Assembly: GCA_017476545.1 (NCBI GenBank) | Contig: JAFUZP010000004.1 | Span: forward strand, 1-32,215 | Direction: 5' to 3' | From: Alloprevotella sp. | GTDB lineage: Bacteria; Bacteroidota; Bacteroidia; Bacteroidales; Bacteroidaceae | DNA length: 32,215 nt | Part shown: positions 5,730-9,355 of the stretch, piece by piece | Position numbering within the stretch: position 1 is the stretch's first letter | Layout: the number at the start of each line of letters is the position of its first letter | Notes under the pieces: generated by a model | The model's database searches: none | Seen by the model: only the letters and a program-made list of their open reading frames with translations | What the model was told of the DNA's origin: nothing | Translations under genes and position numbers: made by a program

Positions 5730-6188
5730 TCATTTCCGGCGGAAAACCATCTCCGCTACTACTTTATAGAGCTTGCGCCGGACGGCGCGCTTCACCTCGT
5801 TCCCGCCCGTAGCCCGGTAGGCGAATGTGCCGTCGGGAAGGCTGGTGAACTCTATGGTCTGCGCATCGCTCCCTATGTCGTTGCTCATGCGGAGCACAGC
5901 CTTGTTTGCGTTTATCTTGTGGGAGAGCAGGAACCAAGTACCGTAGAGCCGCTCCTGCGTGTCGCCCGTCATATAGCCACCCGTCTTGCCCAGGAAGGGG
6001 TAGTCGGGCACGTCAAGACCATCGCCATATAAGTCCAGACGGAGCGTGATGCCTTGCTCCTCACAATAGAACGTGCCACGGAACGGCAACGAATCCGTTA
6101 CCGCAGGCGGTACTTTCCCCGCCACATCCTGTGCGGAAGCAAGGGTGAAAGCAAAGAACAGGGTGGAAAACAGGATTTTATGCTTCAT
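5730..6188 (-). CDS. Hypothetical secreted protein
   Basis: The protein has 152 residues and an N-terminal signal peptide (MKHKILFSTLFFAFTLASAQ, cleavage after AQ likely). The mature region has short beta-strand-like segments such as FRGTFYCEEQGITLRLDLYG and a basic C terminus (AVRRKLYKVVAEMVFRRK). I recognise no family. Its ATG overlaps the FHA gene's TGA in an ATGA junction at 6185-6188, so its translation is probably coupled to the FHA protein. A nine-G tract (5702-5710) lies just beyond the stop. Function is unknown. Confidence 0.8.
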   Translation of the reverse strand: MKHKILFSTLFFAFTLASAQDVAGKVPPAVTDSLPFRGTFYCEEQGITLRLDLYGDGLDVPDYPFLGKTGGYMTGDTQERLYGTWFLLSHKINANKAVLRMSNDIGSDAQTIEFTSLPDGTFAYRATGGNEVKRAVRRKLYKVVAEMVFRRK

Positions 6189-6694
6189 GAGAAGGTTTCT
6201 TCATCGCCGAGGCGCAAAATGATAGTGGCCGCGCCGATGTTGATAATGTCGCCGTCATGGAGTTCCACGCGGTCGCGGTCACCAAGAATATCACCGTGCA
6301 GAAACGTACCCGTGTTGGAGGGAGCATCGCGCAAGACGATGGAGGGACGGCCATCCTTCGTGCGGCGGACGCTGAGGATGCAGTGGGTAGTGTCAATGCT
6401 CGGGTCTACGGTACGGACGGGGGCATTGGCCTGCGTCCCTTTCACTTCACGCCCAACGATGTTTTCCCCTTCAAAGAGAGGGATTTCCTGCTTCAGTTGG
6501 AATGCGTTTTCAAGTACGACAAGCGTGGCTACGGGGGACTTCTCCGGAGCCGACGCACGCTGCTTGTCGGGCAGACGCAGGCGAAACTGCTTCGCGCAGG
6601 ACGGACAGGTGAAAATAAGGACGCGCCCGGGGGAGTACCGGGCGTCGTCAAACATAATCGGCTCGTCGCACTTCGGACAGCGGATGCGTTTCAT
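6185..6694 (-). CDS. Zinc-ribbon plus FHA domain protein
   Basis: The protein has 169 residues. An N-terminal zinc ribbon of the MJ0042/zinc_ribbon_5 kind uses C6, C9, C30 and C33 (CPKC and CPSC). A C-terminal FHA domain spans about 70-165 with VGRE, a divergent DTTHC in place of the usual SRxH, NTGTFLHG, and the LHDGDIINIG strand. FHA domains bind phosphothreonine peptides, so the protein is likely a cytoplasmic reader of Ser/Thr phosphorylation. The ATG at 6694 is preferred over a TTG at 6712 because it forms an ATGA overlap with the upstream HU-like/SPOR gene. No kinase is encoded nearby. It is translationally coupled on both sides. Confidence 0.9.
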   Translation of the reverse strand: MKRIRCPKCDEPIMFDDARYSPGRVLIFTCPSCAKQFRLRLPDKQRASAPEKSPVATLVVLENAFQLKQEIPLFEGENIVGREVKGTQANAPVRTVDPSIDTTHCILSVRRTKDGRPSIVLRDAPSNTGTFLHGDILGDRDRVELHDGDIINIGAATIILRLGDEETFS

Positions 6695-7662
6695 CTCAGT
6701 TTCTTTACCCAAGCCTCGCGGAAACGGGGGCTACTGGAACGCAACTCGGCAAGCCGCTTATAGGCTTCGCCTTCGGTGGGAAAATGGCCGTAAACAATGT
6801 GTAGCATTCGGCTGATGGTGGCCGGCTCGGCACCTGGATACCCTTCACGCGCCAGCATTTCCACGAAAGGCTGCACATTCTTCTGAGGTACTGCGGCGGC
6901 AAGCACTATTGTGTACGCACCATCCGCAGGAGCCGGAGCGACCGTGGGCTCAGAGATGGGCTGGAGGGCGGACGCTGGATGCTGTGCGATTGCAGGGGCA
7001 GAAGACTTCGGGGCTACGATGCCGGACTGCACAACAGAGGCTGCGTTTTGCAGTGATGTCGTATCGCTTCCGGGTACTGCCCACATAAAATAAAACAACA
7101 GAGCCACAACGGCTGCGGACACATAGTTCGCCAGTTCGCGATGGATGGTTATCGTATAGTAACTGCCGGTGCGCTTGATAAGCCGGAAGCGGGAAACTTT
7201 CTTTGCCTGTGCGGCCTTATCGGCGGCCTGGGTGCTGTATTCTTCCAGCTCGGGGCAAGTAAACGCAGCAAGCCCATACAGGTTTGGCGAAACCAAGCCC
7301 GAAGCGACAGGCTCGAATGCATAACATCCGTCCAACTTAAGCTTAAGCTGGCCTACGCCTTTAATCTCATAAACGCCGGCCTCCTGTAAGCGTTGCTTCA
7401 GGCGTGCCACAGCCGCGTCTATCAGCCGGACGCTTTCGCCATAGGTGGCTGCCGTTGCCGACATATAGGACTGGACGAGCAGGCCATCGTTGAGAGAAAG
7501 TTGCGGGTTGAAGCCGATGGTGCGGCATGGGGGTAGCCAAAAGTCGCCCTCACCCGCCTTCCGGGCTGGCATATACTGTGTAACAAATCCACCCAAGTGC
7601 GGAACAATTACGCAATTATGGTCTAACAAAAGTGACTCTATGTGCCTTGATAACTCTTTCAT
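6691..7662 (-). CDS. HU-like (CCDC81-type) membrane protein with SPOR domain
   Basis: The protein has 323 residues. The N-terminal part starts MKELSRHIESLLLDHNCVIVP and matches the prokaryotic CCDC81-like HU-fold domains of Bacteroidota (about 1-60 and 65-125). A basic stretch (KKVSRFRLIKR) is followed by one membrane helix at about 178-196 and a Pro/Ala-rich linker. A SPOR domain at about 255-323 probably binds denuded peptidoglycan glycan strands. Positive charges before the helix predict the HU-like part in the cytoplasm and SPOR in the periplasm. The ATG at 7662 is chosen over 7686 because homologues start with MKELSRHIE. A TACTTTTG element ends only 6 nt before this ATG, so the mRNA may be leaderless. 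It overlaps the FHA gene by ATGA. Confidence 0.9.
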   Translation of the reverse strand: MKELSRHIESLLLDHNCVIVPHLGGFVTQYMPARKAGEGDFWLPPCRTIGFNPQLSLNDGLLVQSYMSATAATYGESVRLIDAAVARLKQRLQEAGVYEIKGVGQLKLKLDGCYAFEPVASGLVSPNLYGLAAFTCPELEEYSTQAADKAAQAKKVSRFRLIKRTGSYYTITIHRELANYVSAAVVALLFYFMWAVPGSDTTSLQNAASVVQSGIVAPKSSAPAIAQHPASALQPISEPTVAPAPADGAYTIVLAAAVPQKNVQPFVEMLAREGYPGAEPATISRMLHIVYGHFPTEGEAYKRLAELRSSSPRFREAWVKKLR

Positions 7663-7668
7663 ACGCCA

Positions 7669-7676
7669 CAAAAGTA
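7669..7676 (-). promoter_or_regulatory. -7 element of the SPOR-protein gene
   Basis: TACTTTTG on the minus strand exactly fits TAnnTTTG and ends 6 nt before the ATG at 7662. No -33 TTTG is visible at the usual spacing. The preceding gene's terminator (7690-7719) abuts it. Confidence 0.5.
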
Positions 7677-7689
7677 CATAAAACATACG

Positions 7690-7719
7690 AAAATAGCACC
7701 CTGATGCGGGTGCTATTTT
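7690..7719 (-). terminator. Terminator after the HU-LysM gene
   Basis: A perfect 12-bp stem, AAAATAGCACCC with GGGTGCTATTTT, has a 6-nt loop. It lies 78 nt past the HU-LysM stop. The AT-rich ends would work as a U-tract on either strand. Confidence 0.85.
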
Positions 7720-7796
7720 TCAGTAAATCTATGGGTGTTTTTTATAACACCTTAGATAATTGTCTACAAGACAGAGTGTAGAAGTTTTTTCTTCAA

Positions 7797-9077
7797 CTAC
7801 CGCTTCACTTGCAGGCGCGGAAGTTTCAAAACAGCCCCCGTGTGTACGACATCGGGGTTCGCCATTTCATTATAAGAGATGATATAGCGCGCATATTCCC
7901 GGCTGCCATAATATTTCTGGGCTATCTTCCAGAGACTGTCACCGTCCTTCAGGGTGTACGTACCAAGGCTCCCGTTCACGACAACGCTATCATCGGGCTT
8001 CACGGGCAGGGACGCCGTTTCCGCTGCGGGAGGAACTGGCGCGTCCGGCTGGGCGTGTACAACCTCGGGAGACGGCGACGGAGCCGATGGAAGCTCGGCC
8101 TGAGCGGCGGTGGGAGGAGCGTCAGGCATCCCGTCGGGTTGCTCCGAAACGGCCTCACCATCGGGATTCAGGCTGTCGGCAGCGGTTACAAGCGTATCCG
8201 GAGCTGCCAAAGGCGTGCAGGGCGAACCGAACAGATGGCGGCTTCCCGCCAGATAGCCGAGGAAGAACAATAGAAGCGCGCCGAGTAGCAGGGCAAGGGG
8301 CTTCAACCAAGTGGAGCGGGTGTTTTCATTATTATCCATATCATCAGTTGCTGTGGGTGCAGTAATGTCGTTGTCTGTACCGGATTGAGGAGCGGAAGCC
8401 AGAGGAAGCGGTGCAGCAGGGGATGCGCTATTCTTCGGCCTTCCCTCAGCTGCCGGTGTGGCTGCCGGCGGATCTGTATGCTCTTGTGGCGCAGTGGCAT
8501 CCACTGGAGGTGCAGGTTCTGCTGCGGAACGGGGCGGCTGTGCGGGATTTGGCACCTGCAATGTGGCAAACGCGGCGGCTTCGGCCTCAGGCACGGCAGG
8601 TTTTGCAACGGCATCGGCAGGCACAGCGGCTTCCTCTGCGCCAAGCGGAACTTCCGCCGGCGGTACGGGTGCTTCGGGGGGCGTACTTGCGGCGGCCTTG
8701 GCCTGCTCGGCAGCAAAACGCTCGTCAATTGCAGTGAAGTCTTCCACCACGTTATCGTCGCTCAATACTACGGTCTGGAACTGCGAGAAGGGGCGGTTTA
8801 CAAGCTCCTTCAAGCTCGCGTCGGGCGTAAAGCTCACTTTGCTGTGGCTACCTATAGAGATACGCTCGCCCGTATTGACGTTCACGCTTTCACGCTCCTC
8901 GACTGTGACAATCTTAAACGTACCAAAACCTTTAACTTTCGCTATCTGGTCGTTTGCAATTCCTGCCGTAATAACCTCGAAGAAGTACCGGCAGAAAGCC
9001 TCTGCCTTTTTCTTTGTCACACCTTGGCGCTGGGCCAGAAGAGCGGCAAGCTCGGAAAGTGATAATTTGCGGTTCAT
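7797..9077 (-). CDS. HU-domain membrane protein with C-terminal LysM
   Basis: The protein has 426 residues. Residues 1 to about 95 form an HU/IHF-type DNA-binding fold (IAKVKGFGTFKIVTVEER, VNVNTGERISIGSHSKVSFTPD). A long Ala/Pro/Glu-rich region follows, then one membrane helix at about 257-277 (PLALLLGALLLFFLGYLAG) and a second low-complexity Pro/Ala linker. A LysM domain lies at about 375-422 (YTLKDGDSLWKIAQKYYGS...GAVLKLP). LysM binds peptidoglycan GlcNAc, and basic residues before the helix place HU in the cytoplasm. The layout implies a bridge between DNA and the cell wall. The ATG overlaps the stop of the free HU gene (ATGA, 9074-9077). Confidence 0.92.
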   Translation of the reverse strand: MNRKLSLSELAALLAQRQGVTKKKAEAFCRYFFEVITAGIANDQIAKVKGFGTFKIVTVEERESVNVNTGERISIGSHSKVSFTPDASLKELVNRPFSQFQTVVLSDDNVVEDFTAIDERFAAEQAKAAASTPPEAPVPPAEVPLGAEEAAVPADAVAKPAVPEAEAAAFATLQVPNPAQPPRSAAEPAPPVDATAPQEHTDPPAATPAAEGRPKNSASPAAPLPLASAPQSGTDNDITAPTATDDMDNNENTRSTWLKPLALLLGALLLFFLGYLAGSRHLFGSPCTPLAAPDTLVTAADSLNPDGEAVSEQPDGMPDAPPTAAQAELPSAPSPSPEVVHAQPDAPVPPAAETASLPVKPDDSVVVNGSLGTYTLKDGDSLWKIAQKYYGSREYARYIISYNEMANPDVVHTGAVLKLPRLQVKR

Positions 9078-9355
9078 GGCTGTTCGTTTATCTTATCCTT
9101 TAGTGTGGGGCTAGGCCTGAATGCGATAGCGAGCTTGGGCGGTACCAACTGACGCTGCTTCGTTGAGGGATTGACAACTACCCGCTCCATTTTCTTTTTT
9201 ACCTCGAAACTGCCGAACCCCTGCACGGGCAGGATGTCGCCCTCCTCGAGGGTGTCGGCCAAAACAGCCGAGAAATGACCGACCATCTGCTGCACCTCTT
9301 TGGGCGTTGCCCCGATGCGCGCGGCCATGTCGTTTAGGAAATCTTTGTTATTCAT
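9074..9355 (-). CDS. HU family DNA-binding protein
   Basis: The protein has 93 residues, the usual HU length. It shows the dimer helices (MNNKDFLNDMAARIGATPKE), the beta-saddle VQGFGSFEVKKKMERVVVNP and the C-terminal FRPSPTLKDKINEQP. In HU the DNA-intercalating proline lies in a RNP turn; here the corresponding turn reads VVNPSTKQ. It bends and compacts DNA in the nucleoid. It lies 39 nt after rimO and overlaps the HU-LysM gene by ATGA, so the free HU and the membrane-anchored HU are made from one message and may heterodimerise (inference). Confidence 0.93.
   Translation of the reverse strand: MNNKDFLNDMAARIGATPKEVQQMVGHFSAVLADTLEEGDILPVQGFGSFEVKKKMERVVVNPSTKQRQLVPPKLAIAFRPSPTLKDKINEQP

Follow-up and report, generated by a model that had tools for sequence, protein, structure and literature searches.

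A free HU protein and an HU-TM-LysM protein encoded as a conserved gene pair in Bacteroidota: a probable IHF-like heterodimer and a possible link between nucleoid and cell wall

The window analysed here, a stretch of 32,215 nucleotides (nt) from Alloprevotella sp. (contig JAFUZP010000004.1 of assembly GCA_017476545.1; source genome 80% complete, 1.98 Mb in 46 contigs), encodes on its minus strand a small free HU protein followed directly by HU-TM-LysM, a protein that carries an HU domain, a single membrane-spanning (TM) segment and a LysM domain on one chain. These two proteins very probably form an IHF-like heterodimer with one wall-anchored subunit. The features of the locus are as follows, the pair being given before its neighbours (aa, amino acids).

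9355-9074, minus strand: free HU, a dedicated paralogue of 93 aa (PF00216, E 6.8e-22); proposed soluble subunit of an IHF-like heterodimer
9077-7797, minus strand: HU-TM-LysM, 426 aa (PF00216 and LysM over cut-off); proposed wall-anchored subunit
8793-9077, minus strand: HU domain of HU-TM-LysM (aa 1-95), probably cytoplasmic
8298-8792, minus strand: acidic Pro/Ala-rich linker of HU-TM-LysM (about aa 96-260), net charge about -18, preceding the membrane segment
8241-8297, minus strand: single membrane-spanning segment of HU-TM-LysM (aa 261-279), mean hydropathy 2.2
7818-7958, minus strand: LysM domain of HU-TM-LysM (aa 374-420, Pfam), probably periplasmic
7719-7690, minus strand: terminator-like hairpin of 12 bp between the HU-LysM and SPOR genes, a consensus match only
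7662-6691, minus strand: tandem HU-CCDC81-TM-SPOR protein, 323 aa (PF18174, PF18175 and PF05036 over cut-off), a separate module
6694-6185, minus strand: zinc ribbon and FHA protein (FHA E 2e-10), adjoining the CCDC81-SPOR gene and not the HU pair
10690-9395, minus strand: rimO, upstream neighbour (TIGR01125 over cut-off)
11256-10687, minus strand: purN, between ftsY and rimO
12221-11253, minus strand: ftsY, upstream neighbour (TIGR00064 over cut-off)

Both members of the pair score well above the Pfam cut-off for PF00216 (22.4 bits), the free HU at 78.0 bits and HU-TM-LysM at 72.4 bits (E 3.8e-20, aa 8-94), and the LysM domain of the latter reaches 29.6 bits against a cut-off of 20.9 (E 6.7e-7). 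A first-pass annotation of this DNA had placed a free HU gene, an HU-TM-LysM gene and an HU-like-TM-SPOR gene here, with the HU stop overlapping the HU-LysM start; the three genes lie where it put them, with their Pfam domains over cut-off, and the overlap is an ATGA (9077/9074). The range that it gave for them, 6185..9355, does cover the three genes, but its 6185 end belongs to a fourth, the zinc ribbon-FHA gene.

A search with the HU-LysM protein matched 48 of 61 relatives at E 0.001, short HU and LysM matches included. A free HU open reading frame (ORF) adjoins HU-TM-LysM on the same strand in 29 of 30 relatives' loci, the remaining locus starting at a contig end, and the spacing between the two ranges from -65 to +200 nt when starts are taken as the first possible codons. 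Among named genomes at least 572 stretches encode an HU-LysM relative, plain HU possibly being among them; the best 80, which are the most similar rather than a random sample and come from Bacteroides, Prevotella, Paraprevotella, Alloprevotella and other Bacteroidales, are all preceded on the same strand by rimO and by free HU (within 291 nt), and 78 also have ftsY upstream, the other two beginning inside rimO. An order-wide draw of 198 genomes, in which the best profile matches were examined, offers a fairer sample. It holds the two-gene pair in 32 genomes of 17 families (28 found by profile, together with G170 and with G061, G111 and G165), and free HU lies directly upstream in all 32, mostly with an overlap of 4, 8 or 11 bases. 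Counting two fused forms (G119, G205), the HU-LysM unit was recognised in 34 of the 198 genomes; more divergent ones may be missed. These sets of loci overlap, so some genes are counted in more than one. The conserved unit is free HU plus HU-TM-LysM, a strict gene pair in every informative locus read.

The free HU of the window is a special paralogue, because two other HU genes of the source genome score higher against general HU (105.7 and 88.4 bits, versus 77.0 for the pair's free HU). With a dedicated free-HU profile, 26 of the 198 order genomes score at least 87 bits and all 26 possess HU-TM-LysM, the best score among genomes without a recognised HU-TM-LysM being 66 bits (G206), which is in the range of ordinary HU. 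The free HUs of the divergent pairs (G061, G081, G111, G165, G170, G200) score 61 bits or less or are not listed; therefore score alone cannot separate them from ordinary HU. Six further HU-family matches of 28.6-32.9 bits are found on contigs C15, C9, C11, C36 and C10 of genome G000 (L036-L041); their open frames of 147-162 aa perhaps encode HU-HIG-like proteins.

In the family of G119 the two genes are replaced by one, encoding a protein of about 420-510 aa that combines a pair of HU domains with a hydrophobic segment and LysM. A search with this fused protein matched 32 of 38 genomes of the family, namely all 26 of one genus and 6 of 12 of the other; matches in the second genus run mostly through the LysM end and their loci were not read, the 20 loci read (L269-L288) all belonging to the first genus. 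All 20 align across both HU domains (one breaks off ahead of the membrane segment), and no separate HU ORF was found in them with the free-HU profile. By profile-profile comparison the first domain is closest to free HU (97.8%, E 8.9e-13, versus 82.2% for anchored HU) and the second to anchored HU (98.1%, E 1.1e-13, versus 93.1%). Of two fused proteins scanned with Pfam, one showed HU below the threshold only and the other no HU, and the fused proteins are therefore very divergent. Two genes that adjoin everywhere else and are one chain here constitute a classic sign of partners in one complex. The suggestion made in the first-pass annotation that free HU serves as the partner of HU-LysM thus gains from three sides: the strict gene pair, the co-occurrence of two dedicated subfamilies and the fusion in one family.

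The pair is also present outside the class of the window. A phylum-wide draw of 296 genomes yielded 33 matches at E 1e-15, comprising 3 genomes of the window's own family and 30 of one family in another class, and free HU lies directly upstream in all 27 loci read in the latter. Pfam recognises LysM weakly in these proteins (3 of 10 scanned, E 0.005, 0.03 and 0.16). A LysM profile built from the Bacteroidales proteins matches all 27 at 19.7-41.1 bits, the best of 540 shuffled sequences reaching 3.3 bits, and profile-profile comparison of the Bacteroidales LysM with the other-class end gives 98.7%. Neither rimO nor ftsY was seen in the other-class loci read for neighbours (L246-L252), and the genes found there differ (aconitase and a Dabb-domain gene in L248); therefore only the pair itself is common to both classes. 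In a tree of 83 sampled HU domains (98 columns), all 40 anchored HU domains fall on one side of a branch with SH-aLRT support of 94-95, below the program's star, and all 40 free HUs form one group (SH-aLRT 97), each of the two groups holding both classes. This suggests that one old duplication lies behind anchored and free HU, of which 98 columns are no proof. In four loci of other families (L255, L256, L258, L259) HU-LysM is directly followed by a gene of one common family; the L256 member encodes a MoxR-type AAA protein and precedes DUF58 and BatA/VWA genes.

Membrane topology was judged from hydropathy and flanking charge. Lysine and arginine (K+R) are more numerous on the N-terminal side of the membrane segment in 81 of 109 relatives, on the C-terminal side in 7 and equal in 21; in two of the 109 the hydrophobic maximum is weak or misplaced. 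The first-pass annotation had assumed HU inside and LysM outside, and had named a periplasmic HU domain as what would speak against its proposal; the flanking charge favours a cytoplasmic HU domain with a periplasmic wall-binding end. By similarity search, LysM is present at the C-terminal end of 102 of 110 HU-TM-LysM relatives (105 distinct ends), five further proteins have a divergent LysM-like end, four of them with a sub-threshold Pfam LysM match, and two are cut by contig ends. The last one (L024) ends in SPOR, over the Pfam cut-off, and keeps its free HU. This single case of a LysM/SPOR swap suggests that peptidoglycan binding may be what matters at this end. The gene in question (L024:850-2136, minus strand, in G027) lies at the usual HU-TM-LysM site, and the same genome also has a CCDC81-SPOR gene (L069).

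For the residues involved in DNA binding, numbered as in Thermotoga HU, we counted 129 anchored HU domains (from 140) and 127 free HUs (from 138), dropping rows with identical last 60 residues and leaving out L002 (equal to L151), L026 (5' end cut), L179 and L180. Free HU has the tip proline P63 in all 127 rows, R58 in 125, K/R at positions 53, 54 and 55 in 126 each and K/R74 in 127, and its arm carries a net charge of +5.75. Anchored HU has K/R43 in 127 of its 129 rows, K45 in 113, K/R51 in 127, R58 in 126, H74 in 124 and K/R76 in 128. The tip is read by eye as NP in all 27 anchored HU domains of the other class (24 of 27 by a script that required a following E), and G170 keeps NP at the tip of its anchored HU as well. 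Among solved structures, the anchored family profile is best matched by IHF-alpha (2iie, E 4.4e-15). It seems from these alignments that both members of the pair started out with canonical arms; in Bacteroidales one of the two arms then changed, and some lines lost more. The earlier view of the HU domains as DNA binders is weakened by this: the tip is mostly kept in free HU and lost in anchored HU of Bacteroidales, and the arms of the SPOR protein are short and non-basic.

We propose that free HU would pair obligately, on the cytoplasmic side, with the HU domain of HU-TM-LysM to give the modelled IHF-like heterodimer, and that the acidic flexible linker and the single membrane helix would tie one subunit to the periplasmic LysM, which would hold peptidoglycan. 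In the lineage of the window, such a complex could reach through the inner membrane and strap DNA, whether the nucleoid in bulk or only certain sites, to the wall; it may have a role in nucleoid position or segregation. That the wall-anchored heterodimer tethers DNA in this way, as a nucleoid-to-wall strap, is our best guess, held at somewhat less than even confidence. More tentative is the wider proposal of an old two-gene system of Bacteroidota, a dedicated chromosome-to-peptidoglycan strap whose wall end can be exchanged (LysM or SPOR) and whose HU halves are fused in one family. A literature search by titles and abstract openings, covering few subscription papers, recognised no published account of an HU-TM-LysM protein.

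Several observations weigh against the strap or against the evidence for its dimeric form. The anchored HU of Bacteroidales has V/I in place of the tip proline in 126 of 129 rows and P in one, and its arm has a net charge of -0.64, versus +5.75 in free HU. The arm is lost from the anchored HU of G061, G111, G165 and G200, and the tip proline from the free HU of G061, G111 and G165; in the fused family, domain 2 is without an arm and the arm of domain 1 is acidic or neutral, not basic. With arms lost or changed in some lineages, a function common to all lineages therefore cannot need classic HU arms. That residues 43, 45, 51 and 76 of anchored HU face the DNA side of the saddle is a presumption. 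The unit is patchily distributed, being recognised in only those 34 order genomes. The dimer model is one chain read through the intergenic stretch (13 rows), and such packing may be what AlphaFold gives for any two HU domains. In a mirror-tree comparison of free HU with the anchored HU domain (76 of the 80 named loci), the partial correlation is 0.22 given RimO and FtsY, and none of 2000 permutations was as high; the comparisons of HU with the LysM end (0.19) and of HU with RimO given FtsY (0.40) show that shared phylogeny is therefore not removed from this value.

The divergent pairs and the fused family together strengthen the heterodimer and weaken DNA binding as its common purpose, and they make more probable the main rival, a docking adaptor in which the anchored HU dimer binds a cytoplasmic protein partner at the wall and not DNA. 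RodZ, which uses its HTH domain to bind MreB, provides the model. We regard this as possible and take it seriously, without preferring it: free HU keeps P63, R58 and the basic residues at 53-55 almost without exception, the other-class anchored HU keeps its NP tip in every locus read, and conserved basic residues remain on the anchored domain. If the HU end does bind protein, the system would clearly illustrate how a pair of nucleoid proteins was turned into an envelope adaptor, and the stages along the way (arms kept, half lost, lost, fused) can still be seen in different lineages. If the strap is true, it would constitute a direct, physical nucleoid-wall link in abundant gut bacteria and give access, through two genes that are easily deleted, to nucleoid position and to the coupling of wall and chromosome. 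Bacterial chromosome positioning is known in few lineages; most of the known cases involve ParABS anchors and polar scaffolds.

Three other explanations appear less probable. Domain order and topology would fit a one-component membrane regulator on the model of ToxR and CadC, in which LysM senses the state of the wall and HU alters transcription or DNA architecture at particular promoters, and the moxR-type gene directly downstream in four other-family loci, followed by DUF58 and BatA where checked, could be read likewise; this is unlikely, since Pfam found no sequence-specific DNA-binding domain in the HU-LysM protein of the window and the neighbours vary by lineage (rimO/ftsY, moxR, aconitase), hence no fixed regulon. 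Less likely still is the joint version put forward in the first-pass annotation, a two-protein nucleoid tether made by HU-LysM and HU-SPOR together with free HU. Both are indeed HU-TM-wall-binding proteins, and besides the window two named genomes and 8 of 37 genus genomes have them side by side, but they adjoin in only 2 of the 80 named loci and are elsewhere unlinked or far apart, PF18174 is present in all 29 high-quality relatives, including ones without an HU-LysM match (19 of 29 matched), and the HU domains of the SPOR protein look unfit for HU-type DNA binding. DNABII proteins are known outside cells in biofilms, and an HU domain outside the inner membrane might bind extracellular or periplasmic DNA; we consider this highly improbable, as the HU domain starts at residue 8 or earlier by its Pfam position, leaving no room for a signal peptide, and, of the 88 proteins whose membrane segment has unequally charged flanks, 81 have the more positive flank towards HU.

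Among known systems, the pair resembles HU and IHF (DNABII) in that both of its HU proteins belong to PF00216 over cut-off and in that two distinct paralogues co-occur and are encoded as a pair, as are IHF-alpha and IHF-beta, the anchored family being nearest IHF-alpha. It differs in that one subunit adds an acidic linker, a membrane helix and LysM, and in that the anchored HU of Bacteroidales is without the tip proline. RodZ likewise has an N-terminal cytoplasmic fold of DNA-binding type, one membrane helix and a periplasmic C-terminus, but its fold is HTH, it has neither LysM nor a free partner gene, and the N-terminal domain of the window protein is HU. In 2017, Burroughs et al. reportedly described HU-CCDC81 as a family whose prokaryotic members carry SPOR and predicted a role in chromosome partition. 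This family shares with HU-TM-LysM the order HU fold, membrane segment and peptidoglycan-binding domain, and the fused HU-HU-TM-LysM proteins have the same tandem layout; in contrast to its two short-armed HU domains in one chain, the pair of the window is two genes of PF00216. Pfam found no match to PF18174 or PF18175 in HU-TM-LysM (7797-9077) at E 1, with sub-threshold PF18175 hints in some relatives. The nearest functional likeness is to HubP/FimV, with a periplasmic LysM, one membrane segment and a long acidic cytoplasmic part. According to one article (PMC12918733), HubP places the chromosome origin at the pole and the LysM of FimV was found to bind peptidoglycan, whereas in P. putida FimV plays no part in chromosome segregation. 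In contrast to the window protein, HubP/FimV has LysM on the N-terminal side, a C-terminal FimV/TPR domain and no HU domain; in HU-LysM of the window, where HU is N-terminal and LysM C-terminal, Pfam found no match to FimV/TPR at E 1, and the protein is not a member of this family.

The CCDC81-SPOR protein of the window carries a fused HU pair of its own and makes up a parallel module of the envelope, outside the proposed HU/HU-LysM complex. It matches PF18174 at 88.7 bits (cut-off 26, E 2.3e-25), PF18175 at 57.3 bits (cut-off 35, E 1.5e-15) and the SPOR family PF05036 at 22.7 bits (cut-off 21, E 1.3e-4), and has a hydrophobic segment at about aa 181-199, counted from the start at 7662. PF18174 was found in 54 of the 61 relatives, with one match each save for two in G050, in all 29 with completeness of 90% or more and contamination of 5% or less, and in 32 of 198 genomes of the phylum draw, all of the window's own class; the SPOR domain was confirmed by Pfam in three CCDC81 proteins only. 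K+R is higher on the N-terminal side of the membrane segment in 28 of 32 CCDC81-SPOR proteins, on the C-terminal side in one and equal in three. Their HU domains keep the fold motifs. Where HU has its arm of 25 residues, the first domain has a stretch of about 17 residues with a mean net charge of -1.2 and the second a short turn, and the net charge of the HU region over window columns 1-131 averages -5.75 (n=32), that of the window protein being 0. HU-type DNA binding by these domains is doubtful because their arms are short and non-basic. A profile of them gave only weak HU matches among solved structures (best E 0.015), and the AlphaFold model of the window protein (three rows) has a mean pLDDT of 45.6, its HU part being unusable and its SPOR part mostly at about 74-83. 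The fused HU-HU-TM-LysM layout (L269-L288) resembles that of CCDC81-SPOR, which may stem from a similar fusion.

CCDC81-SPOR adjoins HU-LysM in two of the 80 named loci and lies within 1.5 kb of it, on one strand, in 8 of the 37 genus genomes (G000, G004, G011, G014, G016, G018, G031, G035), while in G007, G015 and G032 the two share a contig at a distance of about 136-172 kb. As this adjacency is rare, the apparent pairing of HU-LysM with the SPOR protein, which had been taken for one pair, is a local neighbourhood of two separate modules. They are neighbours in the window, as was noted in the first pass, but a gap of 134 nt with the terminator-like hairpin lies between them, and the two genes therefore need not be co-transcribed. 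A scan for such terminator-like sites found 11 in the window versus 7.4 expected by chance; the region 7660-7800 has a folding z of -4.7. On the same strand, 3' of the hairpin and six bases before the ATG at 7662, TACTTTTG (7676-7669) resembles what we take to be the Bacteroides -7 box, TAnnTTTG, and the SPOR-FHA genes may have a promoter of their own, both signals being consensus matches only. This placement may mean a Bacteroides-type promoter and a leaderless or very short-leader transcript; a second in-frame ATG for the CCDC81-SPOR gene is present at 7686.

An ATGA overlap likewise joins the CCDC81-SPOR stop to the start of the zinc ribbon-FHA gene, whose zinc ribbon scores under its Pfam cut-off. 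A gene of this kind lies downstream of CCDC81-SPOR in 25 of 40 loci, that is, in 25 of 31 from relatives and two named genomes and in none of 9 from other families of the class; one of the six misses is a sequence that ends 70 bases on. Four of the eight genomes with HU-LysM nearby (G004, G011, G018, G035) lack it downstream of CCDC81-SPOR. Where it follows CCDC81-SPOR (among the window, L042-L070, L072, L082 and relatives), the FHA gene often overlaps it and possibly encodes a phospho-dependent partner of the SPOR module.

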